NCBI GenBank assembly: GCA_002279355.1
Contig: NCBV01000004.1
Location: 1-64,000, forward strand
DNA length: 64,000 nucleotides
Source: Acidiphilium sp. 37-60-79
Lineage (GTDB): Bacteria; Pseudomonadota; Alphaproteobacteria; Acetobacterales; Acetobacteraceae
Reading direction: 5' to 3'
The notes beneath the pieces were generated by a model that made no database searches, was not told the origin of the DNA, and worked only from the letters and a program-made list of their open reading frames with translations. The position numbers were made by a program, and so were the translations under genes. Positions 3,618 to 36,004 of this stretch are shown here, in pieces. Position 1 is the first letter of the stretch; each line of letters starts with the position of its first letter.

Positions 3618-3662
3618 GCCAAACATTTATCGATCAAATCACAACCACAAAGGACCAACCCC

Positions 3663-5045
3663 ATGGGTTATCAAAGCATCAATCCCTTTAACGGCAAGCT
3701 CCTGCAAACTTTCACGGAACTTTCCGACGCACAGCTCGAAGAAAAAATTGCCACCGCAACGGCTTGCTTCGCCAGTTGGAAGCAAAAATCCTATGCCGAG
3801 CGCGCTATCATTATCAACAAAGCCGCTGTGATCATGCATGAACGGGCGGACGCACTGGCCCATATCATGACGCTCGAAATGGGCAAGCGCATCAACGAAG
3901 CGCGAGGCGAGGTTGAATTCAGCTCGAACATTCTGGCCTATTACGCCAAAAACGCCGCCAAATTTCTGGCCCCCCAGGAGCTCCACCCCACAATCGGTGA
4001 TGCCCATATGGAAAGCACACCCATCGGCGTGATCTTCGGGGTCGAACCATGGAACTTCCCCTATTATCAACTCGCCCGCGTCGCCGGGCCGCATCTGATG
4101 GCCGGAAACGTGCTAATGGTCAAACATGCTGGCTGCGTGCCGCAATGTGCGATCGCGTTTGAGAAAATCTGGATCGAAGCCGGCGGACCTGCTGGACTTT
4201 ATACCAATTTACTAATCTCGCATGAACAAACCGAGACCGTGATTGATGATCCCCGCATCAAAGGCGTCGCCCTCACCGGCAGCGTTGCGGCCGGACGCGC
4301 GATTGCCGCCCGCGCAGGGCAAAATTTGAAGCCATCATCCATGGAACTCGGCGGCAGCGATGCCTTCATCGTGCTTGATGATGCCGATCTCGACCATACG
4401 GTAAAATGGGCTGTTTGGGGCCGTATGTATAATGGCGGCCAAACATGCTGTGCAGCCAAGCGTTTCATTGTCGTTGAGAAAATCGCCGATAATTTCCTTG
4501 AGAAATTCAAAACAGCCCTCAGCGCATTGAAAGCCGGAGACCCGCTCGATGCCGCGACCACCCTTGGTCCGTTATCAACCGAAGCGGCGTTAGTTCAACT
4601 GCTCGAACAAGTCAAAATCGCCGTTTCTCATGGTGCCAAGCTGGTGCTCGGCGGCAAACGGATTGATCGTCCAGGTTCATTCATGGAGCCAACCATCCTG
4701 ACCGATGTCAAACCCGGCAATCCGGCGTTTCGTGACGAGTTTTTCGGGCCAGTCGCGATGTTCTTCCGGGTCAAAGACGAGGACGAAGCAATCGCTCTCG
4801 CCAACGATTCTGATTTCGGATTGGGGGGATCGGTATTCACCAAGGACATTGCCCGTGGCAAGCGCGTGGCGAGCCGGGTTGAAACAGGCATGATGTTCAT
4901 TAACAATATCTCCTGGTCCGATGCCGAATTGCCGTTTGGTGGTATCAAAGATTCCGGCTATGGCCGCGAGCTGGGTGATATGGGTATTCAGGAATTCGTC
5001 AATAAAAAACTGGTCCGCTATGCGGCAATCGAAGCGCCCGTCTGA
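3663..5045 (+). CDS. NAD(P)-dependent aldehyde dehydrogenase (succinate-semialdehyde dehydrogenase-like)
   Basis: A 460-residue aldehyde dehydrogenase with all catalytic positions: N131 in EPWNFP, E228 in MELGGSD, and nucleophile C262 in GGQTCCAAKR. It oxidises an aldehyde to the carboxylate with NAD(P) reduction. Its length and the DAELPFGGIKDSGYGREL ending resemble the short GabD/YneI-like group, so succinate semialdehyde is possible, but the neighbouring alcohol dehydrogenases suggest a simple aldehyde. Start ATG 3663 is preceded by AAGGA. It lies between an alcohol dehydrogenase and the transhydrogenase genes in one co-directional run. Confidence 0.9.
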   Translation: MGYQSINPFNGKLLQTFTELSDAQLEEKIATATACFASWKQKSYAERAIIINKAAVIMHERADALAHIMTLEMGKRINEARGEVEFSSNILAYYAKNAAKFLAPQELHPTIGDAHMESTPIGVIFGVEPWNFPYYQLARVAGPHLMAGNVLMVKHAGCVPQCAIAFEKIWIEAGGPAGLYTNLLISHEQTETVIDDPRIKGVALTGSVAAGRAIAARAGQNLKPSSMELGGSDAFIVLDDADLDHTVKWAVWGRMYNGGQTCCAAKRFIVVEKIADNFLEKFKTALSALKAGDPLDAATTLGPLSTEAALVQLLEQVKIAVSHGAKLVLGGKRIDRPGSFMEPTILTDVKPGNPAFRDEFFGPVAMFFRVKDEDEAIALANDSDFGLGGSVFTKDIARGKRVASRVETGMMFINNISWSDAELPFGGIKDSGYGRELGDMGIQEFVNKKLVRYAAIEAPV

Positions 5046-5090
5046 CGTTCAGTTATCATCAATCCAAATTATCTCCATCGAGGAAAAGCT

Positions 5091-6218
5091 ATGTATGTCA
5101 ACGTCGCCGTCCTAAAGGAAACACAACCCCATGAACGACGCGTTGCCCTGGTCCCTGGCCTGATTTCCAAACTAACGTTGCTCGGCGCTAGGCTGCATAT
5201 GCAGTCTGGCGCCGGTGTTGCCGGTGGCCTGCTGGACGGTGATTTTCACGATGTCGTTATTCAAACTGACCGAGCCGCCATGGTCAGCGTCGCTGATGTC
5301 GTCCTCGCAGTGCAGGCGCCGGCAATTGCGGTCATTGAGGCGATGCAGGAGGGCGCGGTGCTCATCTGCTTTGTTAATCCAATCCATGATGCCGAACTGA
5401 TCAAACATTTGCTGGCACGGCGAATTACCTGCTTCGCCATGGCCTCGATTCCACGCGTAACGCGGGCGCAGTCAATGGACGCGCTATCGAGCCAAGCAGC
5501 CCTTTCGGGTTATTATGCGGTTCTACTCGGTGCGACCCATCTACCCCGGGTATTGCCGAAAGTGACGACAGCGGCTGGCACAATCGGCCCCGCAAAGGTT
5601 TTGGTCATGGGGCTCGGTGTTGCCGGCCTTGAAGCGGTCGCTACCGCGCATCGCCTCGGCGCGCTGGTCGAGGGGTACGATGTGAGGCCAGATACCGCCG
5701 AGCAAATTGCCTCGCTCGGCGCCAGCTTTGTCTCCACCGGCGTCGATGCCACCGGTAAGGGCGGCTATGCACGTGCGCTGACGGCTGCAGAGAGCGCTAA
5801 AATCGACAAGGTATTGACCAGCCATATCCAGGATGCCGATTTGATTATCACCACAGCAGCAATCCCTGGCCACCGCTCACCGCAATTGATTAGTAAGGCT
5901 CAAGTAACCGCTATGAAATCCGGCTCTGTTATTGTCGATTTAGCAGCCGAGGGCGGCGGTAATTGCGCCAATAGCGTGCCCGGTGAATTCATCCACGTTG
6001 GTGCGGTGACAATTATAGCGCCGCTGAATTTGCCGTCATCCCTGCCCGCCGACGCGAGCGCGCTCTATGCCCGAAATGTTGCTAATCTCCTGTCATTGAT
6101 GCTGAAAGACAACGTGATAACGATCGACTGGCAGGACACAATTTTGGCCCAAACGGCCATCACCCATGCGGGTAAACTGGTTGCACCAGACCCTAAAACC
6201 AATCCGAAAGCGGCTTGA
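5091..6218 (+). CDS. pntAA: NAD(P) transhydrogenase subunit alpha 1 (NAD-binding domain I)
   Basis: A 375-residue soluble subunit of proton-translocating transhydrogenase, which exchanges hydride between NAD(H) and NADP(H) coupled to proton entry. The N-terminus (VAVLKETQPHERRVALVPG) and the dinucleotide motif MGLGVAGLEA are characteristic of the alanine-dehydrogenase/PntA family. The protein stops before any membrane segment, as in the split three-gene form common in Alphaproteobacteria. A GAGGAAAAG Shine-Dalgarno precedes ATG 5091. pntAB follows 13 nt later. In this operon it could convert NADH from the dehydrogenases to NADPH or balance the pools under low oxygen. Confidence 0.95.
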   Translation: MYVNVAVLKETQPHERRVALVPGLISKLTLLGARLHMQSGAGVAGGLLDGDFHDVVIQTDRAAMVSVADVVLAVQAPAIAVIEAMQEGAVLICFVNPIHDAELIKHLLARRITCFAMASIPRVTRAQSMDALSSQAALSGYYAVLLGATHLPRVLPKVTTAAGTIGPAKVLVMGLGVAGLEAVATAHRLGALVEGYDVRPDTAEQIASLGASFVSTGVDATGKGGYARALTAAESAKIDKVLTSHIQDADLIITTAAIPGHRSPQLISKAQVTAMKSGSVIVDLAAEGGGNCANSVPGEFIHVGAVTIIAPLNLPSSLPADASALYARNVANLLSLMLKDNVITIDWQDTILAQTAITHAGKLVAPDPKTNPKAA

Positions 6219-6231
6219 ACAGGACGTTATC

Positions 6232-6576
6232 ATGATTCATATCGATAGCTTCATCGGGCTATATATTTTTATGCTAGCGGGGTTTGCCGGTTGGATTATC
6301 ATCGGCCGCGTTCCAGCGATTTTGCATACGCCCCTGATGTCCGGCTCTAATTTCGTCCACGGCATCGTGGTCATCGGTGGCATTATCGTGCTGCTTGACG
6401 CGACAACGCTAACCGAACGCGTTATCGGCTTCATCGCCGTGCTGCTAGGCGCTGGTAATGCCGCTGGCGGTTATGCAGTGACGGACCGGATGCTGGCGAT
6501 GTTTCAAACCAGCGACGATGTTCGTCATGGCAAAAAGACACGGCGCAAACGCGCCACGCACCATAAGAAAGTCTGA
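6232..6576 (+). CDS. pntAB: NAD(P) transhydrogenase subunit alpha 2 (membrane)
   Basis: A 114-residue membrane protein with about three hydrophobic helices (FIGLYIFMLAGFAGWIIIG, a second around FVHGIVVIGGIIVLL, a third around VIGFIAVLLGAGNAAGG). A basic C-terminal tail ends KKTRRKRATHHKKV. This is the second half of PntA in organisms with a split alpha subunit. ATG 6232 follows AGGA with seven bases between. A longer in-frame upstream extension overlaps pntAA and is not supported by the family. pntB starts 3 nt after its stop. Confidence 0.93.
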   Translation: MIHIDSFIGLYIFMLAGFAGWIIIGRVPAILHTPLMSGSNFVHGIVVIGGIIVLLDATTLTERVIGFIAVLLGAGNAAGGYAVTDRMLAMFQTSDDVRHGKKTRRKRATHHKKV

Positions 6577-6579
6577 GAC

Positions 6580-8019
6580 ATGATTGATCAGATTTCACAA
6601 CTCGTGGTCGGCGCCGTTGATCTGATTGCAGCCTTTCTGCTGCTCTATGGTTTGCATCGTATGGCGTCGCCAGTCACCGCGCCGTCGGGTATTTTTGTCG
6701 CGGGTATCGGCATGGCGGTCGCTATTCTCGTTACATTTCTGGATATCTTTGGAGTTAATGCTGCGGCACGCCCGTTTCTACCGGTGAATATCGGTCTGGC
6801 CGTGATTGCCCTTACCATTGGTGGCGGCGTGTCGTGGTGGGGTGGCCGCAAAGTCGCGATGACCGCCATGCCACAAATGGTAGCGATCTATAATGGCATG
6901 GGGGGCGGTGCCGCTGGTTCTATCGCGGCCGTTGAGTTGTTCGGCCATCACACATCCGGCCTTGTGCCCCTTTCGGTAACATTATTGGGTGCGCTGATCG
7001 GGGCGGTCTCGTTTGCTGGATCAATCATCGCCTGGGCAAAGCTTCAGAGTATTCTCAACAAGCCGCTGCGAGTTCCTTATCTCCGATTTTTTAACCTAGC
7101 CCTTTTTGTAACCACCGTTGCCGTTGGTTGTGTTATTGCATTTCTCAGCCTGAGCAGCGCACTATCGCCGGAACTCATCTTTGGATTTTTTGTTTTGGCG
7201 ATGCTGTTCGGCATCATGATGACCTTGCCAATCGGTGGCGCCGATATGCCCGTGGTGATCTCGATCTATAATGCGTTCACCGGCCTTGCTGTGGGTCTCG
7301 AAGGCTTCGTGTTGCAAAATCCCGCGCTGATGATCGCCGGTATGGTTGTCGGCGCAGCTGGTCTAATGCTAACAATGCTCATGGCGCGGGCGATGAACCG
7401 CTCAATCAGCAATGTGTTATTTTCGAATTTCGGCGATGCACCGGCAAAAGCGCATGGAGCCATCAAAGGTGAAATGAAGCCGACCGAACCGGCCGATGCC
7501 GGCACATTCATGCGCTATGCCAAAAGCGTGATTATTGTGCCGGGTTACGGCCTCGCTGCAGCCCAGGGTCAGCAGAAATTATATGAATTCGTCAAGCTTC
7601 TTCAAGGCGCCGGTGTCTCGGTCAAATTTGCGATCCATCCGGTCGCAGGTCGTATGCCAGGCCAGATGGATGTGCTGCTCGCAGAAGCGGGCGTGCCTTA
7701 TAACATGATTTTCCAACTTGATGACATTAATGCTGAATTTGCTGACACCGATGTGGCACTGGTCATCGGCGCGAACGATGTGGTCAATCCAGCCGCACGC
7801 AACGACAAATCTTCGCCAATTTATGGTATGCCAATCCTGAATGCCGATCAGGCTAAGCAAGTTTATGTTATCAAGCGCGGTCAAGGTAAAGGCTATGCTG
7901 GCATCCAAAACGCCCTGTTCTACGGAGATAATTGCAACATGGTCTATGGCGACGCCACTTCGGTGCTCGCCACCATGATCGAAGCCGTCCGCGGCCTTGG
8001 CACCAAAGCGGCGGCGTAA
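6580..8019 (+). CDS. pntB: NAD(P) transhydrogenase subunit beta
   Basis: A 479-residue protein with multiple membrane helices over about the first 280 residues, forming with PntAB the proton channel, and a C-terminal NADP(H)-binding domain III (VIIVPGYGLAAAQGQ, then ALVIGANDVVNPAA and VIKRGQGKGYAG). These are hallmark PntB motifs. The length is typical. It immediately follows pntAB, and a zinc alcohol dehydrogenase gene begins 23 nt after its stop. The full transhydrogenase is therefore encoded inside an operon of dehydrogenases headed by an FNR promoter. Confidence 0.95.
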   Translation: MIDQISQLVVGAVDLIAAFLLLYGLHRMASPVTAPSGIFVAGIGMAVAILVTFLDIFGVNAAARPFLPVNIGLAVIALTIGGGVSWWGGRKVAMTAMPQMVAIYNGMGGGAAGSIAAVELFGHHTSGLVPLSVTLLGALIGAVSFAGSIIAWAKLQSILNKPLRVPYLRFFNLALFVTTVAVGCVIAFLSLSSALSPELIFGFFVLAMLFGIMMTLPIGGADMPVVISIYNAFTGLAVGLEGFVLQNPALMIAGMVVGAAGLMLTMLMARAMNRSISNVLFSNFGDAPAKAHGAIKGEMKPTEPADAGTFMRYAKSVIIVPGYGLAAAQGQQKLYEFVKLLQGAGVSVKFAIHPVAGRMPGQMDVLLAEAGVPYNMIFQLDDINAEFADTDVALVIGANDVVNPAARNDKSSPIYGMPILNADQAKQVYVIKRGQGKGYAGIQNALFYGDNCNMVYGDATSVLATMIEAVRGLGTKAAA

Positions 8020-8042
8020 TCGTATCATAACAGGAGTTAACT

Positions 8043-9077
8043 ATGACAACCACAATGCATTCAGCAATGGTCGAAGCGTTTGGCAAGCCTCTGGTTTTGC
8101 GCGAATGGTCGATTCCTACGCCCGGGCCAGGACAAATCGTGGTGAAAACCGAGGCGTGTGGGGTGTGCCACACTGATTTGCACGCGGCCAATGGCGATTG
8201 GCCGCTAAAGCCAAAACTGCCCTTCATCCCTGGTCATGAGGGGATTGGTATTGTTTCTGCTGTCGGTCCAGGCGTAACAATTGTCAAAGAAGGTGATCGT
8301 GTTGGCGTGCCGTGGCTCTATTCTGCCTGTGGTCACTGCGAATACTGCCTGAAGGCATGGGAGCCGGTTTGTGCGCAAGCCGAATTCGGCGGCTACACAA
8401 GAAATGGTGGTTTTGCCGAATATATACTGGCTGATCCCGATTATGTGGCGCATATCCCGAAAGATCTTGATGCACGGGCCGCGGCACCCATGATCTGTGC
8501 CGGTATCACAACTTATAAGGGTCTGAAGGAAACCGGCGCCCGTCCGGGCGAATGGGTCGCCATTTCCGGTGCTGGTGGACTTGGGCATTTAGCCATCCAA
8601 TATGCCAAAGTGATGGGACTTATGGTCTGCGCCATCGATATTGATGATGGAAAATTGGCTCACGCCACCAAGCTCGGTGCCGATTTTGTGGTCAACGCGA
8701 AATCGGGAAACCCTGCAGAAGCCGTGAAAAAATTCACGAATGGCGGTGCCCATGGCGTGCTGATCACTGCGCCATCCTTGATCGCGTTCAAACAAGGTGT
8801 CGCGATGACGCGCAAGCACGGCATATGCGTGTTGGTCGGTTTGCCGCCGGGTGAATTTCCGGTGCCGTTGTTCGATGTGGTCGCGAATTGCATTACCATT
8901 CGCGGCTCTTTTGTGGGCACGCGCGCGGACATGGCGGAGGCGCTGGGATTTGCGGCGGACGGGCGCGTTAAAGCGGATATCGAGTTGCAACCGCTCTCGG
9001 CGGTTAACCACGTGCTTGAGCGATTGGCCCATGGCGATGTTCCGGCGCGGGTGGTGATCGATTTCGCCGCGACTTAA
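8043..9077 (+). CDS. adhP: Zinc-dependent alcohol dehydrogenase AdhP-like
   Basis: A 344-residue alcohol dehydrogenase of the AdhP/bacterial ethanol dehydrogenase group. Catalytic zinc ligands C42 (CGVCHTD) and H65-E66 (GHEGIG) are present, as are four structural cysteines C96, C99, C102 and C110 (CGHCEYCLKAWEPVC). The Rossmann motif reads SGAGGLGHLA. It probably interconverts ethanol or other primary alcohols and aldehydes with NAD. Start ATG 8043 has AGGAG eight bases upstream. It closes the operon from 2580, and a hairpin-forming repeat follows at 9106-9131. Why the operon holds two different zinc alcohol dehydrogenases is unknown. Confidence 0.92.
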   Translation: MTTTMHSAMVEAFGKPLVLREWSIPTPGPGQIVVKTEACGVCHTDLHAANGDWPLKPKLPFIPGHEGIGIVSAVGPGVTIVKEGDRVGVPWLYSACGHCEYCLKAWEPVCAQAEFGGYTRNGGFAEYILADPDYVAHIPKDLDARAAAPMICAGITTYKGLKETGARPGEWVAISGAGGLGHLAIQYAKVMGLMVCAIDIDDGKLAHATKLGADFVVNAKSGNPAEAVKKFTNGGAHGVLITAPSLIAFKQGVAMTRKHGICVLVGLPPGEFPVPLFDVVANCITIRGSFVGTRADMAEALGFAADGRVKADIELQPLSAVNHVLERLAHGDVPARVVIDFAAT

Positions 9078-9105
9078 GTGCAGCCATGGTGAGCGGTTAT
9101 TCATC

Positions 9106-9131
9106 TTTCGATCAATTTTCTGTGATCGAAA
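9106..9131. terminator. Inverted repeat after adhP, possible terminator
   Basis: TTTCGATCA (9106-9114) and TGATCGAAA (9123-9131) are perfect 9-bp inverted arms around an 8-nt loop, 28 nt after the adhP stop. The stem is AT-rich and lacks a following T-run, so it may be an operator or processing hairpin instead. The rest of the 288-bp gap before the protease gene shows nothing else I can support. Confidence 0.35.
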
Positions 9132-9365
9132 ATGCGACTATATGGAATATTGCGCAGATACTCGCCGCGGCAAAATTAGTTGCAGAGTTCTGATCAGATC
9201 GTAGCAATTTTTCACGGACGTTGCCGCCGCAGGGCTGGATAGCGCATCTTGATCTCACCGATCAATCCGGTCATGTCTAATCGGTCGGAGTTGCCGACAA
9301 GAACAATTTCGACATGAGGCGTCGTCGCGATCGGCGCTTCTTGGCGGCAAAACCGGGGCTTTACG

Positions 9366-12300
9366 ATGAAAGTAAAATTTTTCGTCCGCGCGATTGGTGC
9401 TGCTCTCTCGATTCTGTGGTTTTCGCAATTTGCTGCTGCCGATGGTGCGCCCGGGCCCGTTCAGGCCCTCCTCCGCTATCCCAGCATTCATGGCAACATG
9501 ATTGTGTTCGAGGCGGCAGGCGCCGTTTGGAAAGTCCCCGCGCAAGGAGGCGTGGCGACGCGCCTCACGTCCGATACCGGCTACGAATCTCATCCGATCA
9601 TTTCGCCGGACGGCAAATGGGTGGCGTTCACCGGATGGTATAACGGCAATACCGACGTTTTCATTGTCTCGATTGATGGCGGTCCGGTCAAGCAATTAAC
9701 CTGGCGATCGGTCAACGCGCCGGTCAAGGGTAAAATCGTCACGGTGCCGGATAACGTTGTTGTCGGCTGGACCCCTGACAGCAAAAATGTCGTGTTTTTG
9801 TCCCGCCGCGCAAGTTTTAACCCGCAAATCGAACGCGCATTCGAAGTGCCGATCACCGGTGGTTTGGCAACGAGCGTGCCCATGCCGTGGACGGGCCCGT
9901 TATCATTCAATCAGACCGGCACGACCATTGCCTATAACAAGATGTCGCGAATGATGCGGGCCTTTCACCGCAAGCATTATTTCGGCGGACAAGCCGACAA
10001 TATTTACACCTATACGCTTGCGACGGGTGCGAGCACCCAAGTGACCCATTGGAAGGGCGAAGACGCTTTTCCGATGTGGGTGGGTGATAAGCTTTATTTT
10101 GCCTCAGATCGTGGCAAGAGCGGTGTGCTTAATCTCTGGGTGAAAAACCTTAAAACTGGCGCGACGCGTCAGATTTCACATTTTCCGACTTATGATGTCG
10201 ATTGGCCGAACGCTGGCAATTCGGGCATTGCCCTATCGGATGGTGGCAAGCTCTATCTCTATTCATTCGCTACGCATAAATTGCAACCCGTGCCGGTTAC
10301 GGTGCCGTTGAGTGGTAAACACACGCTGCCGTTTGAATATTCAGCGGCAAAAATGATCCGGGCCGCAGGAATTTCGCCGAATGGCAAGGTCGCGGTGTTT
10401 AGTGCGCGCGGCGCATTATTCACAGTTCCACTCGATTACGGCCACACGACTGATTTGAGCACGCATGCGGCGAGCAATGATAAGGACCCCGAATGGTCCC
10501 CCCATGGCCATTGGATCGCCTATATCCGCGATCACGGCGTGGATAGCCAAATCATGATCCGCGCGGCGGACGGCGATGGTGCGCCGCGCAGCCTGACCAA
10601 GATCGGCAACGTGACTGTGACAGGGCCGTTAGTGTGGAGCCCGAATGGGCATTGGCTGGCTTATTCGGACTCGCACCAGCAATTATGGTTGGTGAATATC
10701 AAAACTGGCGCCGCGAAAAAAATGGCGTCCGATCCGCAAATGATTGTTGGTGCGTTCCAGGATGTCGCGTTTTCGCCTGACAGCCATTGGCTCGCTTATT
10801 CCAAACATTTGCCCAATCAGCTCCGTGCGCTGTTCATCGATAACGTCCAGACCGGCGCGGTGCATCAAGTGAGCCGTGGTAATTTCAGCGACAAAGAGCC
10901 GGTATTTTCCCATAACGGCAAATATTTGTTCTTCGTATCAGCACGCCTGGTGAATCCGGTGTTATCGAGCTATGATTTTGGTGCGTCGGGCGTGGTGCCG
11001 GATGGGCTCTATGCCACCACATTGCAGGCCGACACGCCCTCGCTGATTGGACCGCGCACCCAGCGCGCGGTGCCTAAACCTCACAAGGCGAAGAAAGGCA
11101 ACGATAAGAAAGGTAACGATAAGAAATCAACTAAGGCTAAGAAGCCCGTGGTGAAAATTGATTTCACCGGCCTGATTAATCGCGCAGTCCAGCTTCCGGT
11201 GCCGGCGGCTAACATCAACGAGATCGCTGAGTTCAAGAAAATTATCTACTACGCGACCGCCCCTGTGCCGGTGCTCGGTGGCGGTATTCCCGGCCAGATG
11301 CCACAACTACGCGCCTATGATTTGAAAAAGCGCAAGTCGATTACGCTGGCAAAAGGGATTGGTGATAATTTCGCTCTATCCTCGGATGGCTCAACATTGT
11401 TATATGAGCTGAAGGGCAAATGGGTTGTCTTGCCCGCTTCGTTTAAGCCGCATCCGAAGTCAAAGCCGCTCGATACGGCGCATATGCAAATGCAGGTCGA
11501 CCCACGGGCGGAATGGGACGAAATCTACAACGAAGCTTGGCGCAATGTGCGTGACTATTTTGTTAATCCCGACTTGATTAAGCGCAAATGGACAAATATC
11601 GGCGACAATTATCGTGCCCTGCTGCCGATGGTGCAGGACCGCGAGGATTTAAACTATATCATGGGCAACATGATCGGTTCGCTCGGTGAGAGTCACATGT
11701 ATATATTCGGTGGCGATGTGGGATGGAAATCCCCACCGCAACCGACAGCCAGCCTTGGTGCTGAGTTCAGCCTGGATCGTGCGGCGGGCATTTACCAAAT
11801 TAAGCGCATCTTTCATGGTGACAACACGGTGCCCGGCTATTACGCGCCGCTCGCGCAGCCTGGCCTCAAGGTCAAGGCCGGCGATTATATCCTCTCCATC
11901 AATGGCCGGACGCTGCACGCCCCCAACAGCCCTTACGCTCTGCTGCAAGGCACTCTAGGCCAAACGATCCGTTTGACCCTCTCGAAAACACCAACCGGCA
12001 AACCTTGGACAATTTTGGTCAAGCCGGTCGTTAGTAGTTCCAAATTGCATTTGCTACACTGGATTAACAATAATCGGCGCGAGGTGAGCCAATTATCCGG
12101 TGGCAAAATTGGCTATATTTATCTCGATGACATGGAGGCGACGGGTTTGCATGAATTCGTCCGTCAATATTACAGTCAGGTCAATAAACCTGGTCTGATT
12201 ATCGACGATCGTTGGAATCTTGGCGGTTTCATCGATACGATTTTGTTCAACCAACTCACGCAAAAAATGGCTGCGGCTTGGGTTAATCGTCACGGCTTTT

Positions 12301-28897: not shown

Positions 28898-29081
28898 GCA
28901 TCCTTCATAGCGGAGCGCCGGGCAGCATAAAACATCGAGCCTCATTGCGAGAGCAAGCGACCGATCGGCGCTGGACATGGACTCCCGACCATCCAACCCT
29001 GATCCAAGGCTGGCACAACCCCAGTCTGATAGGTGAGGCGATCCAGCAACGCAGTCTGGCGTCACCGAACTGAACAAGTAA

Positions 29082-29354
29082 TCGTCCAAAACAGATTTGC
29101 GGCTCAAACGTCTCTACGATGCTATCGAGTTCGGTGTCGCTGACCTCGACGACCCGCCCTTGAAGAAGATTGTGTCCCTGCAAGCGATCCGCGATCAGGC
29201 AAAAGCCGATGGCGACCATGCCCAAGTGCTGGCAGAAAGTGTGGGACAGCGGGCCATCACCCCCGCCATGGTCGAGAAGGTCGCCAGAACGGCGCGCGAG
29301 AGTCCGCGGATCGCAGTTGTGTTCCGCAATGGCGGATGGGGTGTCTGCCGATGA
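29082..29354 (+). pseudogene. Serine recombinase C-terminal remnant
   Basis: The frame after a stop at 29079 reads LRLKRLYDAIEFGVADLDDP, LQAIRDQAKADGDHAQ and ITPAMVEKVARTARES. This is the coiled C-terminal segment of large serine recombinases/resolvases. The catalytic resolvase domain is absent, so it is a remnant. Its last codons (FRNGGWG) run into the 14-bp att repeat, where the reading frame is diverted by the integrative element. Before insertion it would have continued into the tRNA-Ser gene, so an older element had already used this tRNA. Confidence 0.75.
29330..29343. repeat. Left attachment repeat (copy of tRNA-Ser 3' end)
   Basis: TGGCGGATGGGGTG here is identical to 35915-35928, the 3' end of tRNA-Ser (CCA plus acceptor stem on the minus strand). 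It lies 147 bp before the integrase gene. A 14-bp identity at precisely a tRNA 3' end is the normal signature of tyrosine-recombinase integration. Confidence 0.85.
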
Positions 29355-29473
29355 CTTGTATCACACTATGTCAGAATGATCGGAAATCCATAGGATAGGC
29401 TGATGTTTTTTTAATTGGCTATATCCCATTGCGTCATTGTGTCTCATCCTATCTCATGTTATCTTGTGGTCAG

Positions 29474-29484
29474 TTTTGAGGGCA
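29474..29484. promoter_or_regulatory. Possible integrase arm-type site, left
   Basis: TTTTGAGGGCA occurs here, directly before the integrase start codon, and again at 35849-35859 near the right end in the same orientation (both preceded by CA plus a purine). Repeated short sites at both element ends are typical integrase arm sites. The site also overlaps the integrase ribosome-binding region (GAGGG). Confidence 0.45.
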
Positions 29485-29490
29485 GATGAC

Positions 29491-30696
29491 ATGAGCAAGC
29501 TGACGGATCGGACAATCAAGGCGATCAAAACCGATGGACGCTATGGCGATGGGCGCGGCCTATGGTTCATCCGGCGCGGTGGCTCGACCACATGGGCGTT
29601 GCGATGGATGCGCGCGGGCAAGGCCCGTGAAATGAGTTTCGGCCCCTATCCTGAAATCGGGCTGGCAGAGGCACGGCAGGCCGCCCTAGACGCCCGCCGC
29701 CTAATTCTGGCGGGTGCTGATCCGATCGAGGCGCGCAAGGCTAGCAGGGGCGCAGATGGGCGCACATTCGAGGCAACCGCCCTGGAATATATCGAGGCGC
29801 ACAAGGCCGGTTGGCGCAACGCCAAACATGGCGCGCAATGGCAAGCCACCCTGGCGGCCTATGCCTTCCCCCTGATCGGCCCGAAGCCGGTGCAGGCGAT
29901 CGGCACCGATGACGTTCTAGCCATCCTGAAACCGCTCTGGCAGGCCAAACCAGAGACGGCAACCCGGTTGCGCGGGCGGATCGAGAGCGTGCTCGACTAC
30001 GCCAAAAGCCGAGGGTGGCGCTCTGGTGAAAATCCGGCGGCGTGGCGCGGGCATCTCGACAATCTTTTGCCCGCCCGATCCAAGGTTGCGGCGGTGGTGC
30101 ATCATGCGGCGGTGCCGTGGCGTGAACTGCCCAGCCTTTATGAGCGGATCGCGACCAGTAGCAGCATATCCAGCCAATGCCTCGCCTTCGCCATTCTGAC
30201 TGCCAGCCGATCGGGTGAGGCGCGGGGCGCGCGGTGGAATGAAATCGACCCTGCCGCCCGCACCTGGACGATACCGGGCAGCCGCATGAAGGCGGGCAAC
30301 CCCCATCGGGTGCCGCTGAGTGCCGCCGCCGTGGCGATCCTGCATGCCATGCAGCCACACCAGAGGGCCGCTGACGGCGTTGTCTTTCCGGGTGGCGTTG
30401 TCGGCAAGCCCATGAGCGACGTTGCCTTGAACAAGGCTCTGGCGGCTGCTGGTGGCGATGCGTTCACGGTTCACGGGATGCGCTCGACATTTCGCGACTG
30501 GGCAGCTGAGGCGACTGGCACCCCGCGCGAAATTGCCGAGGCCGCGCTCGCTCATACCAACAAGGACAAGGTTGAAGCCGCCTATTTGCGCGGTGATCAC
30601 TTTGACCGGCGACGGGTGCTCATGGATGCATGGGCAGCCCATTGCCAGCGGGTGCCATCGGCAAACGTGGTGCCAATCGGGCAGGTCCGGGCATGA
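29491..30696 (+). CDS. int: Tyrosine-recombinase integrase (P4 type, DUF4102 N-domain)
   Basis: A 401-residue integrase. The N-terminus (KLTDRTIKAIKTDGRYGDG, GLWFIRRGGSTTWALRW) is the DUF4102 arm-binding domain of P4-like integrases. Catalytic residues are visible: R240 in TASRSGEARG, H328 and R331 in HGMRSTFRDW, H355, and the nucleophile Y365 in VEAAYLRGD. It should integrate and excise the surrounding element at tRNA-Ser. ATG 29491 has GAGGG upstream; the frame extends to 29437 but that part is leader sequence. The next gene overlaps its stop (ATGA). Confidence 0.95.
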   Translation: MSKLTDRTIKAIKTDGRYGDGRGLWFIRRGGSTTWALRWMRAGKAREMSFGPYPEIGLAEARQAALDARRLILAGADPIEARKASRGADGRTFEATALEYIEAHKAGWRNAKHGAQWQATLAAYAFPLIGPKPVQAIGTDDVLAILKPLWQAKPETATRLRGRIESVLDYAKSRGWRSGENPAAWRGHLDNLLPARSKVAAVVHHAAVPWRELPSLYERIATSSSISSQCLAFAILTASRSGEARGARWNEIDPAARTWTIPGSRMKAGNPHRVPLSAAAVAILHAMQPHQRAADGVVFPGGVVGKPMSDVALNKALAAAGGDAFTVHGMRSTFRDWAAEATGTPREIAEAALAHTNKDKVEAAYLRGDHFDRRRVLMDAWAAHCQRVPSANVVPIGQVRA

Positions 30697-31202
30697 GCGA
30701 GAACAATGACGATCGCCTTCCAACATCACCAGAGAGCGTTGATAGTGGCACCCCCGCTGCTCACGAAGCCCTAAATCAAGCAATTGGTGCATTTGACATA
30801 TTGGTTGCCGAGTTAGGTGAGACAATCGCGTTAGATATTTGGCGGAATATCACTTCGCTAGCTCCATCAAAATTGAAAAACACGAAATCGAGATCAGGAC
30901 GCTCACGGGGCCGCCCGAAAGGCTCACGAACAAAACCATCAATTCAAGAAGACCTAGCGTTATTAGAAATTATAGCAGAATTGCATCGTAAAATTGCACT
31001 TATTCCATCAAAAACGAATCTTAAGACCCTTGATCGAGATGTGCCAAAAATAAGAATGAAACAGAAAGGAATAAAAGACGGGCCATCTGCAACAAACGCC
31101 GACATTCAGGCGGCTGACACAATCCGACGGCGATATCAGCGATTAAAAAAAGAATTCGCCACAATTCACGACAAAAATACCAAAACCTCCCGCCAGAAAT
31201 AA
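30693..31202 (+). CDS. Hypothetical protein with AT-hook-like motif
   Basis: A 169-residue protein with no recognised domain. Residues about 75-95 read RSGRSRGRPKGSRTKPS, containing the GRP core of an AT-hook, followed by helical, Lys-rich sequence. This suggests DNA binding. Its start codon overlaps the integrase stop as ATGA, so the two are co-translated. The DNA is clearly more AT-rich than that of its neighbours and rich in Lys/Ile/Asn codons, suggesting a different origin. It might be an excision or copy-control factor; that is a guess from position. Confidence 0.6.
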   Translation: MSENNDDRLPTSPESVDSGTPAAHEALNQAIGAFDILVAELGETIALDIWRNITSLAPSKLKNTKSRSGRSRGRPKGSRTKPSIQEDLALLEIIAELHRKIALIPSKTNLKTLDRDVPKIRMKQKGIKDGPSATNADIQAADTIRRRYQRLKKEFATIHDKNTKTSRQK

Positions 31203-31291
31203 TTTCCCTCTCCCCGCTCCCGACAGGCGGTTATCTGTTCCTGCATCAACCCGCGCGCCATCCGGTGCCTGATGCAAAGGACCAAGCCGCT

Positions 31292-31525
31292 ATGCCAAAA
31301 CTATCCCGCGAAATGCTGGACATCACCGCCCCGAACGCCCCTGCCCTGCTCACCATCCCTGAGGTTTGCGCCGCGTTCCGCGTGAGCCGTGCGACCGTCA
31401 ACCGCTGGATCGCCTTGAAGCGGATCGAGGCCGTCAAGATTGGTTTCGGAACCCGGATCAGAACGGCAAGCGCCTTGGCGCTCTTGGCCAACCTGCCAGC
31501 GGCAACATTCCGCCCCGCCGCGTGA
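31292..31525 (+). CDS. Small helix-turn-helix protein, excisionase/AlpA-like
   Basis: A 77-residue protein whose core ALLTIPEVCAAFRVSRATVN and then RWIALKRIEAVKIG is the MerR/AlpA-like helix-turn-helix found in small excisionases and element regulators. ATG 31292 has AAGGA about 11 bases upstream; a GTG at 31265 would add nine residues. Its position before the primase and after the integrase is usual for excisionase or P4 AlpA-type activators. It probably controls excision or expression of the element. Confidence 0.75.
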   Translation: MPKLSREMLDITAPNAPALLTIPEVCAAFRVSRATVNRWIALKRIEAVKIGFGTRIRTASALALLANLPAATFRPAA

Positions 31526-31530
31526 TCGCC

Positions 31531-32412
31531 ATGAGCGATTTTACGGTTGATTTTCTCGACGCATTGCGCGCGGGGGGCATCTTTCCGAAGGCCGGAAACC
31601 GAATCATTGCGGACGGGCGGCTTCATCGCGCACCCGCCGCCGATGACAAGCATGGCGCCCGATCGATTTGGTATAATTTGCACCCCGATGCACCCGCATC
31701 CGGCGCGGGCGGAAATTGGCGCACCGGCGCGCGGGTGAAATGGTGCAGCAAAAGCGGTTGCACCCTGACGCCAGCCGAGCGCGAGACATTGAAACGCCGG
31801 ATCGAGATTGACCGGCAACAAGCGCAAGCCGAGCGCGATTGCCGCCATAAGGAAGCAGCGCGGCGAGCCGCCTGCATTTGGGCATCCGCTCCGCCAGCTA
31901 CCGCCGGTCATCCCTATCTCATGCGCAAGGGCCTCACGCCCGGCATCGCACGCGCAAACGGCGGCGCCCTGATCCTGCCGATTATCGATTTTGGCGGTGC
32001 GTTGCATGGGCTTCAATTCATCGATGAGCACGGCGCAAAACGGTTTATCAGCGGCATGGCGAAGGCTGGGCATTTTGTACCGGTTGGCCCGATGCCGGAC
32101 GGATCGCGCCCATTATGGATTGCTGAGGGCTGGGCAACCGCCTGCACATTGGCAACCATGCGCCCGACCGCTTGCGTCATCGCCGGGCTCGACGCCGGAA
32201 ACCTTGGCGCCGTCGCCATAGAAGCCCGCAGGCAGTGGCCTGGGGCCGCCCTGGTTATCGCGCCTGACTTCGACGCGGTAGGGCGCAAGAAGGGCTTAGA
32301 AGCCGCCCAAAACGCCCGCGCGCGTATTCTGCCGCCGCCGCTCGTGGTCCCACCCGGTGCGACAGATTGGAATGATGTTGCGATCGCTCATCGGGAGGCG
32401 CGGCATGGTTGA
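31531..32412 (+). CDS. Toprim-domain primase of mobile element
   Basis: A 293-residue protein of the phage/plasmid Toprim primase group. An N-terminal segment (SDFTVDFLDALRAGGIFP, WYNLHPDAPASGAGGNWRTG) precedes a Cys pair (WCSKSGC). The C-terminal Toprim domain contains LWIAEGWATACTL and LVIAPDFDAVGRKKG, supplying the acidic catalytic residues. It should prime replication of the element. ATG 31531 lies just after the HTH gene stop. The last 8 nt overlap the helicase gene, so the two are coupled. Confidence 0.85.
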   Translation: MSDFTVDFLDALRAGGIFPKAGNRIIADGRLHRAPAADDKHGARSIWYNLHPDAPASGAGGNWRTGARVKWCSKSGCTLTPAERETLKRRIEIDRQQAQAERDCRHKEAARRAACIWASAPPATAGHPYLMRKGLTPGIARANGGALILPIIDFGGALHGLQFIDEHGAKRFISGMAKAGHFVPVGPMPDGSRPLWIAEGWATACTLATMRPTACVIAGLDAGNLGAVAIEARRQWPGAALVIAPDFDAVGRKKGLEAAQNARARILPPPLVVPPGATDWNDVAIAHREARHG

Positions 32413-33832
32413 TTTTGCTGGCGTTGATCTTGATCCGCCGCCCGCATGGGTTGAGGAACAAATCCCGGATTTTGGCGATTTTGAACCGCATCAGGAAATC
32501 CCCGCTGCGCCGGATGAATTGCCAGAACCGCAACCGGCCTTCGATTTTCCACGCGTGAGCGTGGCAGATATTTATGACAATCCCAGCCCGCAACCGGCTT
32601 TTGTTTGGACGGGGCGCATCCCGCGAGGCCACGTCACGTTACTAGGCGCGCACGGCGGCGCGGGCAAAAGCATGCTGGCGCTTCAACTTGCCGTCGCAAC
32701 CTGCTTGGGGCGCGATTTTCTTGGCGACGCAACCGAGCGGGGCCGCGTGGTGTTTTTCTCTGGCGAGGATGGCGCACCCGTGATCCGCAACCGGCTGGCT
32801 TCGATCGCCGGGGCAGAGCATGCAAACCCACGCCATCTGGCTGATAGTTTGGTCATTCTCGACGCCACCAATGAGCCCGCCCTTTACCGGGAAATCTCAA
32901 CATTCACCATCAAAACCGGCGAGCCAACACCGGGCTTTCATCGGTTGGCGGAAATCGTCAGTGAAATACAGCCCGCAATCGTCATCATCGATAACGCTTC
33001 CGATACTTTTGAGGGGTCGGAGAATGACCGCGCGAGCGTGCGGGGCTTCATGCGCCAACTGCGCCAACTCGCCACCGGGGATGATGCGCCTGCCATTTTG
33101 CTGCTCGCGCATATCCAAAAGCAGGCGGTAGGAAACAGGGGCGCGGAAAGCTATTCGGGCTCGACCGCTTGGCATAATTCCGCCCGGTCCCGTCTTGCGC
33201 TCACGCCCGATAAAGACGATCCGGCCCGCCTGATTCTCACGCATGAAAAATTGAACCTTGGGCCGAGAACCGCCAAGCCGCTGCATCTGGTGCGCGGCGA
33301 CCGTGGACAGCTTGAGCTTGATCAGCCCGCGCCCGGCGTCTGCACGCCGGACGGCACGCCGGAGCCGCCAGAGGATGCGCTCTTGCGCTTGCTGGCCGAG
33401 TTTAATGCGCGCGGTGAGCATGTTTCACCGGAAACATCCGCCCGAAATAATGCGTGGCAAAAATTCCGCGCGGAATCTCACTTTCCGAAGCACGCTTTCC
33501 GCACCGGGGCCGATTTATTCTCTGCCCTCCGCCAGATGGAGCGGGACAGGTTGATCGCCAAAGGCGACTACACCGCCAATCGAAAGACGCGCGCCAATTG
33601 GATCGTCACGGTCAACGGTTATGAACGCATCGGCCAATCTGCGCCCACCGCGCCCACCGCGCCCACCGCGCCCACGTCTGGGGATGGCGCACCTGATGCA
33701 GAGCAGGAAGGGGGCGCGCCCACCGCGCCCACCTATTGCGCAGGGGGTATGGGGGAGAGCGGCGCGCAAAATGACGGCGCAGAATTGCACCCGGCCCCTT
33801 TGGCGGTGGCTGGCCCCGATGAGGGCGATTGA
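32405..33832 (+). CDS. RepA-like AAA ATPase/replicative helicase
   Basis: A 475-residue P-loop ATPase of the RepA/KaiC-like group. Walker A is GAHGGAGKSM (residues 81-90), preceded by FVWTGRIPRGHVTLL. Walker B is AIVIIDNASD, and LLAHIQKQ lies in the sensor region. The family acts as a hexameric helicase in plasmid and phage replication, matching the upstream primase. The C-terminal part after residue 410 is low-complexity with repeated Ala-Pro-Thr units that arise from a 9-bp DNA repeat. Start ATG 32405 overlaps the primase stop. Confidence 0.85.
   Translation: MVDFAGVDLDPPPAWVEEQIPDFGDFEPHQEIPAAPDELPEPQPAFDFPRVSVADIYDNPSPQPAFVWTGRIPRGHVTLLGAHGGAGKSMLALQLAVATCLGRDFLGDATERGRVVFFSGEDGAPVIRNRLASIAGAEHANPRHLADSLVILDATNEPALYREISTFTIKTGEPTPGFHRLAEIVSEIQPAIVIIDNASDTFEGSENDRASVRGFMRQLRQLATGDDAPAILLLAHIQKQAVGNRGAESYSGSTAWHNSARSRLALTPDKDDPARLILTHEKLNLGPRTAKPLHLVRGDRGQLELDQPAPGVCTPDGTPEPPEDALLRLLAEFNARGEHVSPETSARNNAWQKFRAESHFPKHAFRTGADLFSALRQMERDRLIAKGDYTANRKTRANWIVTVNGYERIGQSAPTAPTAPTAPTSGDGAPDAEQEGGAPTAPTYCAGGMGESGAQNDGAELHPAPLAVAGPDEGD
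33641..33675. repeat. 9-bp tandem repeat in the helicase gene
   Basis: The unit GCGCCCACC is repeated almost four times and encodes Ala-Pro-Thr in tandem. Two more partial units occur near 33716-33731. The unit length is a multiple of three, so copy number can change without a frameshift. It is likely to vary between strains. Confidence 0.8.
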
Positions 33833-33959
33833 GACGTGGGCGCAAATCGCGAAGCCTCACGTGTGGCGGAGCGATGGCACTCAACCCAAAATGCTGCTGG
33901 TGGTGGCTCTGCTACCCTGGCGATCACTCGCGAGCCGCCGCGAATAGGGAGTGCAGAAC

Positions 33960-34430
33960 ATGACAAATCTTGCTGACAATTCAGGCCGGAAACAGCGCGG
34001 CAAGCCATTCAAGCCCGGCCAATCTGGTAACCCAGCCGGACGGCCTGCCGGATCGCGCAATGCCGCTCTGGTGGCTCTGGATCAAATTGCAGAGGGCGCC
34101 GCGCCCGCCTTGCTCGACGTGTTGGTAAAGGCTGGCATGGCTGGCGATACCCAAGCGGCCCGGTTGGTGCTGGAGCGCGCATGGCCTATCCGAAAAGGCC
34201 GCGCCATCACGCTTGATCTGCCCCCCGTGATTGACGCCGCTGGCGTGCGTGCAGCCATGGCACGGATCACTAAAGCAGCGGCATCAGCGGAAATCACACC
34301 AGATGAGGCGCAAGCCCTGGCCGCGCTTGTGGAAGGACAACGCCGGGCGATTGAGACGCAAGAGTTAGAGCAGCGAATTTCAGCCATAGAGACGAAACTC
34401 GGAAAGGACAAAACAGATGAAAGCGATTGA
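33960..34430 (+). CDS. DUF5681 domain protein
   Basis: A 156-residue protein with the DUF5681 N-terminus (KPFKPGQSGNPAGRPAGSRN), found in phage-related and mobile-element proteins, some next to small-terminase-like genes. The rest is predicted helical (QLEQRISAIETKLGKDK ends it). ATG 33960 has GGGAG eight bases upstream; GTG 33951 is an alternative. Function unknown. A link to DNA packaging would fit a phage satellite but cannot be shown here. It overlaps the next gene by 14 nt. Confidence 0.75.
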   Translation: MTNLADNSGRKQRGKPFKPGQSGNPAGRPAGSRNAALVALDQIAEGAAPALLDVLVKAGMAGDTQAARLVLERAWPIRKGRAITLDLPPVIDAAGVRAAMARITKAAASAEITPDEAQALAALVEGQRRAIETQELEQRISAIETKLGKDKTDESD

Positions 34431-34683
34431 TAAGCGGGTGGCGAATCTTGAGCGCGCGACTGGGGCAGACCAGAAAGGCACGACCGTCATTCTGAAATGG
34501 TTCGGATCGCCTGTTACGGGGGCCGTTGCCTACGGAGAGTCATGGGCCCGGCTGGAAAATGAAACGGTGGAGCGGTTCATGGCGCGCCTGGTCCGGGAAG
34601 CGCCTTGGCCTAGAGGTGTCGGCTGTCGGATTATTAAACTGATAGGAGAATCGGGTAGCGGGGGGGACGCTCCGCGCCCATGA
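34417..34683 (+). CDS. Small hypothetical protein of the element
   Basis: An 88-residue protein starting MKAIDKRVANLERATGADQK. The opening is a short amphipathic helix, followed by strands such as TVILKWFG and an ending that looks unstructured (GESGSGGDAPRP). No family is recognised. ATG 34417 lies inside the previous gene with AAAGGA upstream, indicating coupled translation. The N-terminal 'IDKRVANLE' helix is common in small phage proteins, but no role is proposed. Confidence 0.6.
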   Translation: MKAIDKRVANLERATGADQKGTTVILKWFGSPVTGAVAYGESWARLENETVERFMARLVREAPWPRGVGCRIIKLIGESGSGGDAPRP

Positions 34684-34773
34684 ACGCGAAGCCATCATAA
34701 CCGAGGGCGTGGCGAGGTGTGTTTTGCCTTGACAGGACAATCCGCATCAAACACTTTCCGCATAGGAAAACGC

Positions 34774-34779
34774 TATAAT
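34774..34779 (+). promoter_or_regulatory. Consensus -10 box before the Sel1 gene
   Basis: TATAAT occurs at 34774-34779 in an AT-rich stretch of the 182-bp gap, about 87 nt before the Sel1-repeat gene. A TTGACA at 34729-34734 is too far away (39 nt) to be its -35, and no good -35 is seen at the right distance. It suggests the cargo gene has its own promoter. Confidence 0.4.
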
Positions 34780-34865
34780 TTTTAGACAGGCGATTAACGG
34801 TGTGGGAGGGACTGCACCGCAATCAGAACGGACAACGAAATTGATCGAGGAAGAGGAATAAGAGC

Positions 34866-35645
34866 ATGCGCTATGAAAGCCCTTTCAAACACAAGAAAGC
34901 CCTTGGCCTCGCCCTTATCGCCTGCATCTGGATCAACACAACAGGCGCAGCATTCGCACAATCAATCCAGACACTGCGCGCCGAAGCCATCAAGGGTGAC
35001 GTAGCGGCAGAAACCAATCTCGCAGCTCGTTACGGGCTTGGCCGGGACTTGCCGCAGAATTACGCCAAGGCCATTTACTGGTTCCGCCTCGCAGCCCATC
35101 AGAGATATGCAGCGGCAGAATATTTTCTCGGCTCTTTCTACAATCTTGGCCGGGGCGTGCCACAGAATTATGCCAAGGCCGCTTACTGGTGGCGGCTTGC
35201 TGCTCATCAAGGATACGCGGACGCAGAATACGATCTCGGCTATGTCTACGATCTTGGCCGGGGCGTGCCGCAGAATTATGCCAAGGCCGCTTACTGGTAT
35301 CGCCTCGACGCAAAACAGGGTGATGCATTTGCAGAGAATAATCTCGGCCTTCTCTATGAGCACGGCCACGGCGTGCCGCAGAATTATGCCAAGGCAGCTT
35401 ACTGGTATCGCCTCGCCGCAAAACAGGGTGATGCAGAGTCGCAATACAATCTCGGCCTTCTCTACGATCATGGCGAAGGGGTGCCGCAGAACTATGCAAA
35501 GTCTTATTTTTGGTTCGATCTAGCAGCCGCAAATGGCGATAAGCACGCCGCTCATGATCGAGATATTGTTGCGAACTTAATGACGCCTGCTGAACTCGCG
35601 GAGGCACAAAATCAAGCGAGCCAATACGTAGCTGCCCATAAATAA
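34866..35645 (+). CDS. Secreted Sel1-repeat protein
   Basis: A 259-residue protein with a signal peptide (KALGLALIACIWINTTGAAFA) and about six Sel1 units of 36 residues, each with the pattern GVPQNYAKAAYWYRLAAKQG and LGLLYEHG. Sel1 solenoids bind proteins and are common in envelope signalling and host-interaction factors. A Shine-Dalgarno GAGGAAGAGGAA precedes ATG 34866. Being the cargo gene at the element's right end with its own likely promoter, it may confer an accessory trait. Partner and purpose are unknown. The near-identity of units at DNA level implies recent duplication. Confidence 0.88.
   Translation: MRYESPFKHKKALGLALIACIWINTTGAAFAQSIQTLRAEAIKGDVAAETNLAARYGLGRDLPQNYAKAIYWFRLAAHQRYAAAEYFLGSFYNLGRGVPQNYAKAAYWWRLAAHQGYADAEYDLGYVYDLGRGVPQNYAKAAYWYRLDAKQGDAFAENNLGLLYEHGHGVPQNYAKAAYWYRLAAKQGDAESQYNLGLLYDHGEGVPQNYAKSYFWFDLAAANGDKHAAHDRDIVANLMTPAELAEAQNQASQYVAAHK
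35035..35520 (+). repeat. 108-bp tandem repeat encoding Sel1 units
   Basis: About four and a half units of 108 bp encode the Sel1 repeats. Blocks such as CAGAATTATGCCAAGGC recur nearly unchanged in successive units, so units were duplicated recently and may vary in number between strains. Confidence 0.8.
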
Positions 35646-35914
35646 TCTTCGCTGATCGCCTGAAATTACTCGCGCGCGCAAGCGCATGTGGACGGGAAAT
35701 AGACAATGAACAGACCGAGGGGGACACTCAATCACCCACCGCGCGTGGTAATCGTTCAGATAAGGGGAAAGCGACAATGCATCGCGATCCCCAACCGCCG
35801 CGCGCGTGTCACCCCATATCGCGCGAAATCATGCACGATTGGTGGCAATTTTGAGGGCATAAAAAACAATTACGCCCATTTCTCTTTGAATTACAGGGGG
35901 TTGTGTGAGAATGG
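35646..35914. other. Right end of the integrative element, non-coding
   Basis: This 269-bp stretch between the Sel1 gene and tRNA-Ser has no convincing gene. It contains TTTTGAGGGCA at 35849-35859, the partner of the site before the integrase, and otherwise nothing I can support. An open frame that runs from here through the tRNA is an artefact of reading tRNA sequence. Confidence 0.6.
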
Positions 35915-35928
35915 TGGCGGATGGGGTG
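35915..35928. repeat. Right attachment repeat within tRNA-Ser
   Basis: TGGCGGATGGGGTG is the CCA end, discriminator and acceptor-stem side of tRNA-Ser on the plus strand and is identical to 29330-29343. It marks the insertion point of the element. Confidence 0.85.
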
Positions 35929-36004
35929 AGATTCGAACTCACGGTACGCTTTCACGTACGGCGGTTTTCAAGACCGCTGCCTTAAACCGCTCGGCCACCC
36001 ATCC
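35915..36004 (-). tRNA. tRNA-Ser (anticodon UGA)
   Basis: On the minus strand the sequence opens GGATGGGTGGCCGAGCGG and ends in the pairing CCCATCC, a G discriminator and an encoded CCA. The acceptor stem pairs over seven bases. The anticodon arm GCGGTCTTGAAAACCGC gives anticodon TGA (decodes UCA/UCG). A long variable arm (TACGTGAAAGCGTA) and the TTCGAATC T-loop confirm a class II serine tRNA. It hosts the integrative element at its 3' end; the gene itself is intact. Confidence 0.97.

Follow-up and report, generated by a model that had tools for sequence, protein, structure and literature searches.

How might a small integrated element move between cells when no capsid, tail or conjugation genes are recognized in it? 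The question is raised by a 6.6-kb element at a tRNA-Ser(UGA) gene on contig NCBV01000004.1 of Acidiphilium sp. 37-60-79 (GCA_002279355.1), whose first 64,000 nucleotides are the window analyzed here. A first-pass annotation, made from the sequence alone, had called it possibly a phage satellite. We favor, with a probability of roughly 0.57, the reading that it is an integrated and probably intact minimal phage satellite, which would use a protein of the DUF5681 family as its own small terminase subunit (TerS). The earlier suggestion is supported only in part overall, and the occurrence of DUF5681 at the TerS position of many phages adds a specific reason for it.

The tRNA-Ser(UGA) gene, the integration target, was located by tRNA prediction on the minus strand at 35915–36004 and is the sole tRNA gene of the window. 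In plus-strand reading, its 3' end is the 14-mer TGGCGGATGGGGTG, which a repeat search found in the window only at 29330 and 35915; the calculated chance expectation for a given 14-mer on the two strands of the window is about 0.0005. These direct repeats, the tRNA-distal (29330–29343) and tRNA-proximal (35915–35928) copies of the attachment (att) core, neither of which is assigned a strand, enclose 6585 bp with eight open plus-strand genes. The integrase gene (int) starts 147 bp inward of the left core and points at the tRNA, indicating that int marks the tRNA-distal end of the element. A DNA search found the full element in a single copy in its own genome (3.07 Mb, 98 contigs). The att repeat that the first-pass annotation had placed around 6.6 kb at a tRNA 3' end was thus borne out.

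The eight plus-strand genes begin with that of the tyrosine recombinase (29491–30696), in which Pfam recognized Phage_int_M (110 bits), Arm-DNA-bind_3 and Phage_integrase. An ATGA overlap joins it to a gene for a 169-aa protein (30693–31202) that has no Pfam family and carries an AT-hook-like GRPKGSR stretch; the best relatives of this protein are weak (E 0.0016 and up) and are mostly DUF5681 open reading frames (ORFs), and an ORF overlaps int in 12 of 29 related loci, none of which carries the GRP motif. There follow genes for an HTH_17/excisionase-like, AlpA-type DNA-binding protein (31265–31525; Pfam HTH_17, 34.5 bits; NCBIfam TIGR01764 excise, 30.1 bits), a Toprim-type DNA primase (31531–32412; Pfam Toprim_3, 44.7 bits; PHROG 2249 DNA primase, 2.4e-51) and a RepA-like AAA_25 replicative helicase (32357–33832; 104.5 bits in a Pfam scan of the sequence minus its first 19 residues). 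Next comes the gene for the DUF5681 protein (33951–34430; Pfam DUF5681, 52.7 bits), which belongs to a full-length subtype and is the proposed small-terminase-like packaging protein. It overlaps a small gene for an RLxxLE-type protein without a Pfam family (34417–34683). The last gene encodes a Sel1-repeat protein, a probable cargo (34866–35645; Pfam Sel1, 157 bits over five stretches; 108-bp tandem repeats).

In the eight genes, Pfam, PHROGs and NCBIfam recognized no capsid, tail, TerL (large terminase subunit) or relaxase family, in agreement with the earlier description of an element with integrase, HTH/excisionase, primase and helicase genes that lacks capsid, tail and conjugation genes; the repeat, the tRNA call and the Pfam domains likewise support an integrative element with a tRNA site and its own replication genes. 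PHROGs gave three weak small-terminase matches (the HTH protein twice, the DUF5681 protein once), and PADLOC gave weak matches only, the best being mad1 (7.3e-7) with the HTH protein. In tblastn searches of phages and plasmids, every match of the helicase had less than 60% identity and none covered 80% of its length; the primase matched 69 phage records, all at less than 60% identity. Relatives of the primase were found in 19 of 150 genomes (own included), the others at 29–43% identity and mostly within longer frames, and weak relatives of the helicase in 105 of 397 genomes (own included). Three repetitive stretches were also seen: near-regular 108-bp tandem units in the Sel1 gene (35007–35546), a 9-bp tandem unit at 33640–33733 that gives APT repeats at the helicase C-terminus, and a stretch at 34676–34743, spanning the end of, and the sequence after, the small gene behind the DUF5681 gene, that has 37–58-bp matches at 86% identity at two other places in the genome (C79 and C91).

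The evidence that DUF5681 may be a terminase protein comes from phages. The place directly before the TerL gene is the usual position of TerS. We scanned IMG/VR with DUF5681 sequence alone and took the best 80 of at least 229 viral loci. In 53 of these 80, the start of an ORF of at least 300 aa falls −60 to +200 nt relative to the DUF5681 stop, and these ORFs match Terminase_3 (36), Terminase_6N (34), Terminase_3C (22) and Terminase_6C (11), in overlapping sets. Similar arrangements were seen in isolated phages: the DUF5681 gene overlaps the annotated large terminase gene in RHph_N3_2 and LE4 (Pfam support for this terminase is strong in the former and weak in the latter), and in Acetobacter phage phiAX1 it overlaps a Terminase_6N-matching gene that is followed by a portal gene. 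When the profile of the full-length type was aligned with that of the TerL-adjacent type, the match had a probability of 99.6% over 64 columns (E 6.5e-25).

The full-length type consists of DUF5681 and an additional C-terminal helical domain, which is also found in a different company. A 255-aa protein of a Roseomonas mucosa plasmid begins with Terminase_2 (115.8 bits), a known small terminase family, and continues with the shared C-terminal domain. This domain of the Roseomonas TerS matches the DUF5681 protein of the window (E 2e-14) and 42 of 70 DUF5681 homologues, at no more than 58% identity among the 20 matches listed. Its gene follows a large primase-like gene, the position held by DUF5681 in the islands described below, and the part of the plasmid examined has no listed TerL and no match to the TerL profile. 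In Thauera (L303), an ORF with the C-terminal domain only lies 220 nt before a Terminase_2 gene. Since DUF5681 adjoins TerL in many phages, the two profiles align and the C-terminal domain is fused to Terminase_2, our best guess is that the DUF5681 protein is TerS-like in function. In the window itself the gene is not directly upstream of terL, as the element has no TerL. The first-pass annotation had set DUF5681 apart from classical satellite genes; this stands for the family name and probably fails for the function, given the TerS position in many phages.

To survey related elements, we scanned a genome collection with three DUF5681 proteins and took the best 80 loci of at least 287 relatives. 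Seventy-four loci scored at least 60 against the profile and were classed as the full-length type; the six below 60 were excluded, and two of them (L295 and L305) have TerL adjoining DUF5681. At least 5.5 kb of upstream sequence was available at 47 of the 74; in these, a same-strand int lies upstream at 28 loci, a primase/helicase at 22, and int is placed elsewhere at 4. Across all 74 loci, 31 have an upstream int, 20 of these with a tRNA in range and 11 with none. The att test was applied to loci scoring at least 60 with an upstream int, and a repeat was taken as significant if 0 of 50 shuffles reached it. In 16 of the 20, an exact repeat of 14–53 bp links the tRNA 3' end with the far side of the element and bounds 4,756–9,779 bp; no significant repeat was found in L269, L275, L282 and L301, of which L269 and L282 are truncated by contig ends. 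The tRNA targets of the family include Ser, Glu, Thr, Met, Pro, Leu, Arg, Val, Phe and Asn, and the hosts include Acidocella, Azonexus, Methylomonas, Halomonas, Thermomonas, Gemmobacter, Desulfobulbaceae and Cystobacterineae, among others. Two of the 16, L228 and L287, are at tRNA-Ser genes, and their cores measure 16 and 14 bp, respectively, indicating that the short core of the window fits elements of this target.

We scanned 129 of the 167 ORFs listed for the 16 bounded elements. Pfam gave 16 integrase and 16 DUF5681 matches, the next commonest families being Prim-Pol, AAA_25, DUF3987, DUF927, AlpA, HTH_17 and Toprim. Terminase, portal, capsid, tail and relaxase families are absent from the 25 commonest of the 47 Pfam families in these ORFs, as are structural families from the 25 commonest of 96 PHROGs. 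After DUF5681, a small ORF of a loose RLxxLE-like pattern occurs in 38 of 73 loci, a frequency for which there is no control for the pattern. The full-length type was present at E ≤ 1e-15 in 8 of 289 alphaproteobacterial genomes (own included), and its Chlamydiota members are two metagenome bins (L251 and L260) and the plasmid pWc. A genome of the same genus (G011) carries a different element at the same site: 12,216 bp separate two copies of the same core at tRNA-Ser(UGA). This interval contains a distal int pointing towards the tRNA, genes of the DUF3987 and AAA families, and DUF5681, the last at a distance of 1.4 kb from the tRNA. The two integrases are 51% identical; together with the shared core, this indicates that two different elements used one site in one orientation. 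The search for relatives with this gene order, which the first-pass annotation had proposed, thus found 16 further bounded elements and the G011 element, with the same gene order and att logic. An integrase 52% identical to that of the window also adjoins tRNA-Ser(UGA) in genome G007 (L125, 2839–8666), where, relative to the core, it is on the opposite flank, oriented away from the tRNA and followed by HTH and large genes.

Several observations weigh against the satellite reading. No upstream int was detected in 19 of the 47 loci with sufficient upstream sequence, and tail-like genes on some relatives are also compatible with decayed prophages. In the felixounavirus Mushroom (L147, 4992–6860), the DUF5681 gene is followed by DUF7788/DUF2828 and by no terminase, and felixounaviruses dominate the DUF5681 matches in annotated phages; DUF5681 is thus not always placed as TerS, and we hold both the satellite reading and the wider reading of DUF5681 given below slightly less firmly for it. 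The DUF5681 region of Mushroom is rich in tRNA genes. The annotated TerS of phage Pam1 is a distant relative, not DUF5681 by Pfam, and weakly resembles the DUF5681 protein of the window (E 0.015). By the pattern used, the full-length type is nearly absent from IMG/VR: of the 2 loci found, the first has upstream int and primase genes, and the second is on a 53-kb contig where a TerL-like gene lies at a distance of 7.3 kb; the DUF5681 protein of the window, searched alone against IMG/VR, gave 15 stretches and no relative.

Structure prediction likewise did not identify a terminase. AlphaFold modeled the DUF5681 protein of the window as four helices (predicted local distance difference test 86.7; predicted template modeling score 0.60), and the model obtained for a viral DUF5681 was of low quality (57.5). 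In Foldseek searches of the PDB, the window model had no match at E ≤ 0.001 (best E 1.2), and no TerS was among the listed Foldseek/VIA matches. Ribosome recycling factor and other helical proteins appeared there and were set aside as below a meaningful level for helical folds. In BFVD, the best match was an unnamed protein (E 1.4e-3), DUF5681 phage proteins appeared from E 0.11, and there was no named TerS. A PDB sequence search with both DUF5681 profiles gave no credible match.

A helper phage, too, was not recognized for the element. A single gene in the host genome matches Terminase_6N, and it lies in a phage-like cluster on the groESL side. The phage-like cluster beside usg and groESL (L310; G000:C72:88000-107900, 2821–11362, minus strand; gene names assigned by eye) contains TerL (Terminase_6C, 57 bits), an SPP1-type portal, and capsid-like and sheath-like genes, and no small terminase was recognized adjoining this TerL. 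Nine of 13 genomes in the genus, the host's own among them, have the L310 TerL gene (60–86% identity outside the own genome), suggesting that the cluster may be a domesticated unit resembling a gene transfer agent. The host genome has no second full-length DUF5681 gene.

If the element is a satellite, its components suggest a route. The integrase and the HTH_17 protein would excise it at the observed 14-bp core in tRNA-Ser(UGA), and the primase and helicase, judged by their Toprim and AAA_25 domains, would replicate the excised circle. A helper phage would provide TerL, portal and capsid. The DUF5681 protein, as homology and gene context suggest, might use its basic GRPxGSR N-terminus for binding to the element and direct the helper TerL to it, much as the TerS of some Staphylococcus aureus pathogenicity islands (SaPIs) does. 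Because no capsid-remodeling gene was recognized, concatemers would presumably fill a head of normal size rather than small capsids. The Sel1 protein would be carried along as cargo.

One alternative, which we consider improbable but worth weighing, is a plasmid-like integrative element in which DUF5681 serves replication, partition or regulation and transfer occurs by conjugation in trans or by transformation. The DUF5681 gene does adjoin replication genes, full-length types are present on small plasmids with ParA and integrase, and the Mushroom gene stands away from any terminase. Small Roseomonas and Methylobacterium plasmids share with the element DUF5681, or a TerS with the common C-terminal domain, and have no listed TerL and no TerL profile match; they differ in being extrachromosomal and larger and in carrying ParA, although some of these records were examined in part. 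Two plasmids, of Methylobacterium currus and Shigella flexneri (L142 and L145), combine DUF5681 with an annotated tape-measure gene, or with tape-measure-like and Dit-like genes, and have no listed TerL or capsid gene. On the other side, all 12 matching plasmid records are classed as non-mobilizable, and relaxases are missing from the 25 commonest families of the bounded elements. The TerS placement in 53 of 80 viral loci and the fusion of the C-terminal domain to a Terminase_2 TerS also speak against it.

Somewhat less probable again is a remnant prophage, a former temperate phage in which the late genes have disappeared while int, the replication genes and the small terminase persist. The primase and helicase are phage-type by PHROGs. 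A prophage-like locus in genome G150 has the order helicase, DUF5681 and a TerL-like gene, the last with a weak Terminase_6C match just below the cut-off, and a 694-aa gene of the G011 element has PHROG tail/endolysin matches. However, eight of eight ORFs of the window element are open, and the TerL profile had no match in the 74 full-length loci, many of which are ended by contig ends; this profile matched 76 of 80 viral loci, which are also its training set. Moreover, the compact order from int to DUF5681 recurs with exact att repeats in 16 other elements of 4.8–9.8 kb at various tRNAs. Decay would not readily produce this arrangement time after time.

The sequence to the left of the element suggests an earlier occupant of the site. 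By translation and comparison with relatives, 29062–29343 (plus strand) derives from the 3' end, now decayed, of a large serine recombinase (LSR) gene that formerly ended in the tRNA; its frame is shifted and an internal segment is missing. When 40 genomes (own and 39 relatives) were searched at the DNA level, seven loci carrying the LSR stretch were obtained. ARAGORN found a tRNA-Ser(GGA), tRNA-Ser(GCT) or tRNA-Arg(CCG) in six and no tRNA within the stretch examined for the seventh, L051. In the six, the LSR frame enters the tRNA and ends, for example, in KWRREWDSNPR or NWRTRYDSNVRP; LSR genes reading into tRNA-Ser or tRNA-Arg genes were seen at L042, L044, L045, L048, L049 and L050. The LSR of the window ends in PQWRMG, the last part of which is the 14-bp core where the element begins, and in G011 the end LKWRMG is likewise interrupted at the core. 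On the simplest reading, the element inserted into an LSR–tRNA-Ser(UGA) junction and disrupted the LSR gene; a family of tRNA-targeting serine-recombinase elements was apparently the earlier occupant. Among the relatives examined, none showed an unoccupied site in which an intact LSR continues into tRNA-Ser(UGA), and in the sister genome G009 the tRNA lies near a contig end, with about 115 bp whose similarity to the window is not beyond chance. That the 14-bp repeat stems from the old serine-recombinase element alone, making the region a patchwork and no transfer unit, is very improbable: the LSR genes of relatives do contain tRNA 3' ends, but the break falls exactly at the core with int adjoining, and another element made the same break in G011.

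The satellite reading places the element near several known systems. P4-like satellites have an integrase, an AlpA/Vis-type regulator, a primase-helicase function and the capsid genes psu, delta and sid. The element shares the first three and differs in that its primase and helicase are split and DUF5681 is present; no P4 capsid-size or decoration family was recognized in the eight genes by Pfam, PHROGs or NCBIfam, in a comparison that included no P4 reference. Capsid-forming phage-inducible chromosomal islands carry their own capsid genes, whereas Pfam and PHROGs recognized no capsid family here. Integrative mobilizable elements differ by their relaxase, of which Pfam and NCBIfam found none in the eight genes; elements with oriT only lie outside this test. 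According to PMC6092414, a TerS homologue encoded by some SaPIs directs the packaging of these islands, and a terS homologue is also present in some newly found phage-inducible chromosomal islands (PICIs). With such PICIs, SaPI-like and Gram-negative, the element shares site-specific integration, int at one end, an AlpA-type regulator and a primase/replication module, and it has the genomic features of PICIs that were compared: att with direct repeats, int, AlpA-type regulator, primase/replication genes and no structural genes. It differs in that its TerS-like protein is DUF5681, a family not recognized as TerS, and in its tRNA site.

A phage-inducible chromosomal minimalist island (PICMI) of Vibrionaceae is described in PMC10803314 as a 6-kb element with int, AlpA, primase and an ATGA-overlapping gene, mobilized as concatemers in helper capsids. 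The element is alike in its size of about 6 kb, its int, AlpA/HTH_17-type regulator and primase, the ATGA overlap with int and the lack of capsid-remodeling genes. It is not a PICMI by site, which lies next to fis in the model and in tRNA-Ser(UGA) here, or by primase, which is DUF3987/DUF5906 in the model and Toprim_3 with AAA_25 here. The word terminase is absent from the main text of that paper. When a small element carries terminase genes or cos/pac sites, PMC11389934 takes this as suggestive of phage mobilization. The one paper found that mentions DUF5681 lists such a protein in a virion proteome table of a Salmonella phage (PMC8954984). The open-access literature searched, with subscription papers and most preprints outside its scope, contained no account of DUF5681 as a terminase or of such a satellite family, no phage satellite named with Acetobacteraceae, and none that combined a terminase small subunit with Alphaproteobacteria; one paper (PMC10690885) came up for a small terminase together with integrase, primase and tRNA. 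Satellites with their own TerS are already known; our best reading is that the element belongs to a family of minimal TerS-type satellites that is undescribed in this literature.

More broadly and more tentatively, at somewhat less than even odds, DUF5681 may be an overlooked small-terminase family whose full-length subtype marks a large class of minimal satellites, which would be integrated at numerous tRNA genes or maintained as small plasmids and would span several bacterial phyla, extending to Chlamydiota. Every member would combine int and replication genes with a detachable DNA-recognition domain, DUF5681 or Terminase_2, on the shared C-terminal domain, which would address the helper TerL, so that a single adaptor would serve different packaging codes. 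If this is true, DUF5681, a family without an assigned function, would become a marker for TerS-type satellites, reaching bacteria for which the literature searched gave none. Small islands that resemble prophage scraps would become candidates for phage-driven gene transfer, and the movement of elements without capsid or conjugation genes would become a directly testable question. The Acidiphilium element may travel loaded into particles made by other viruses.

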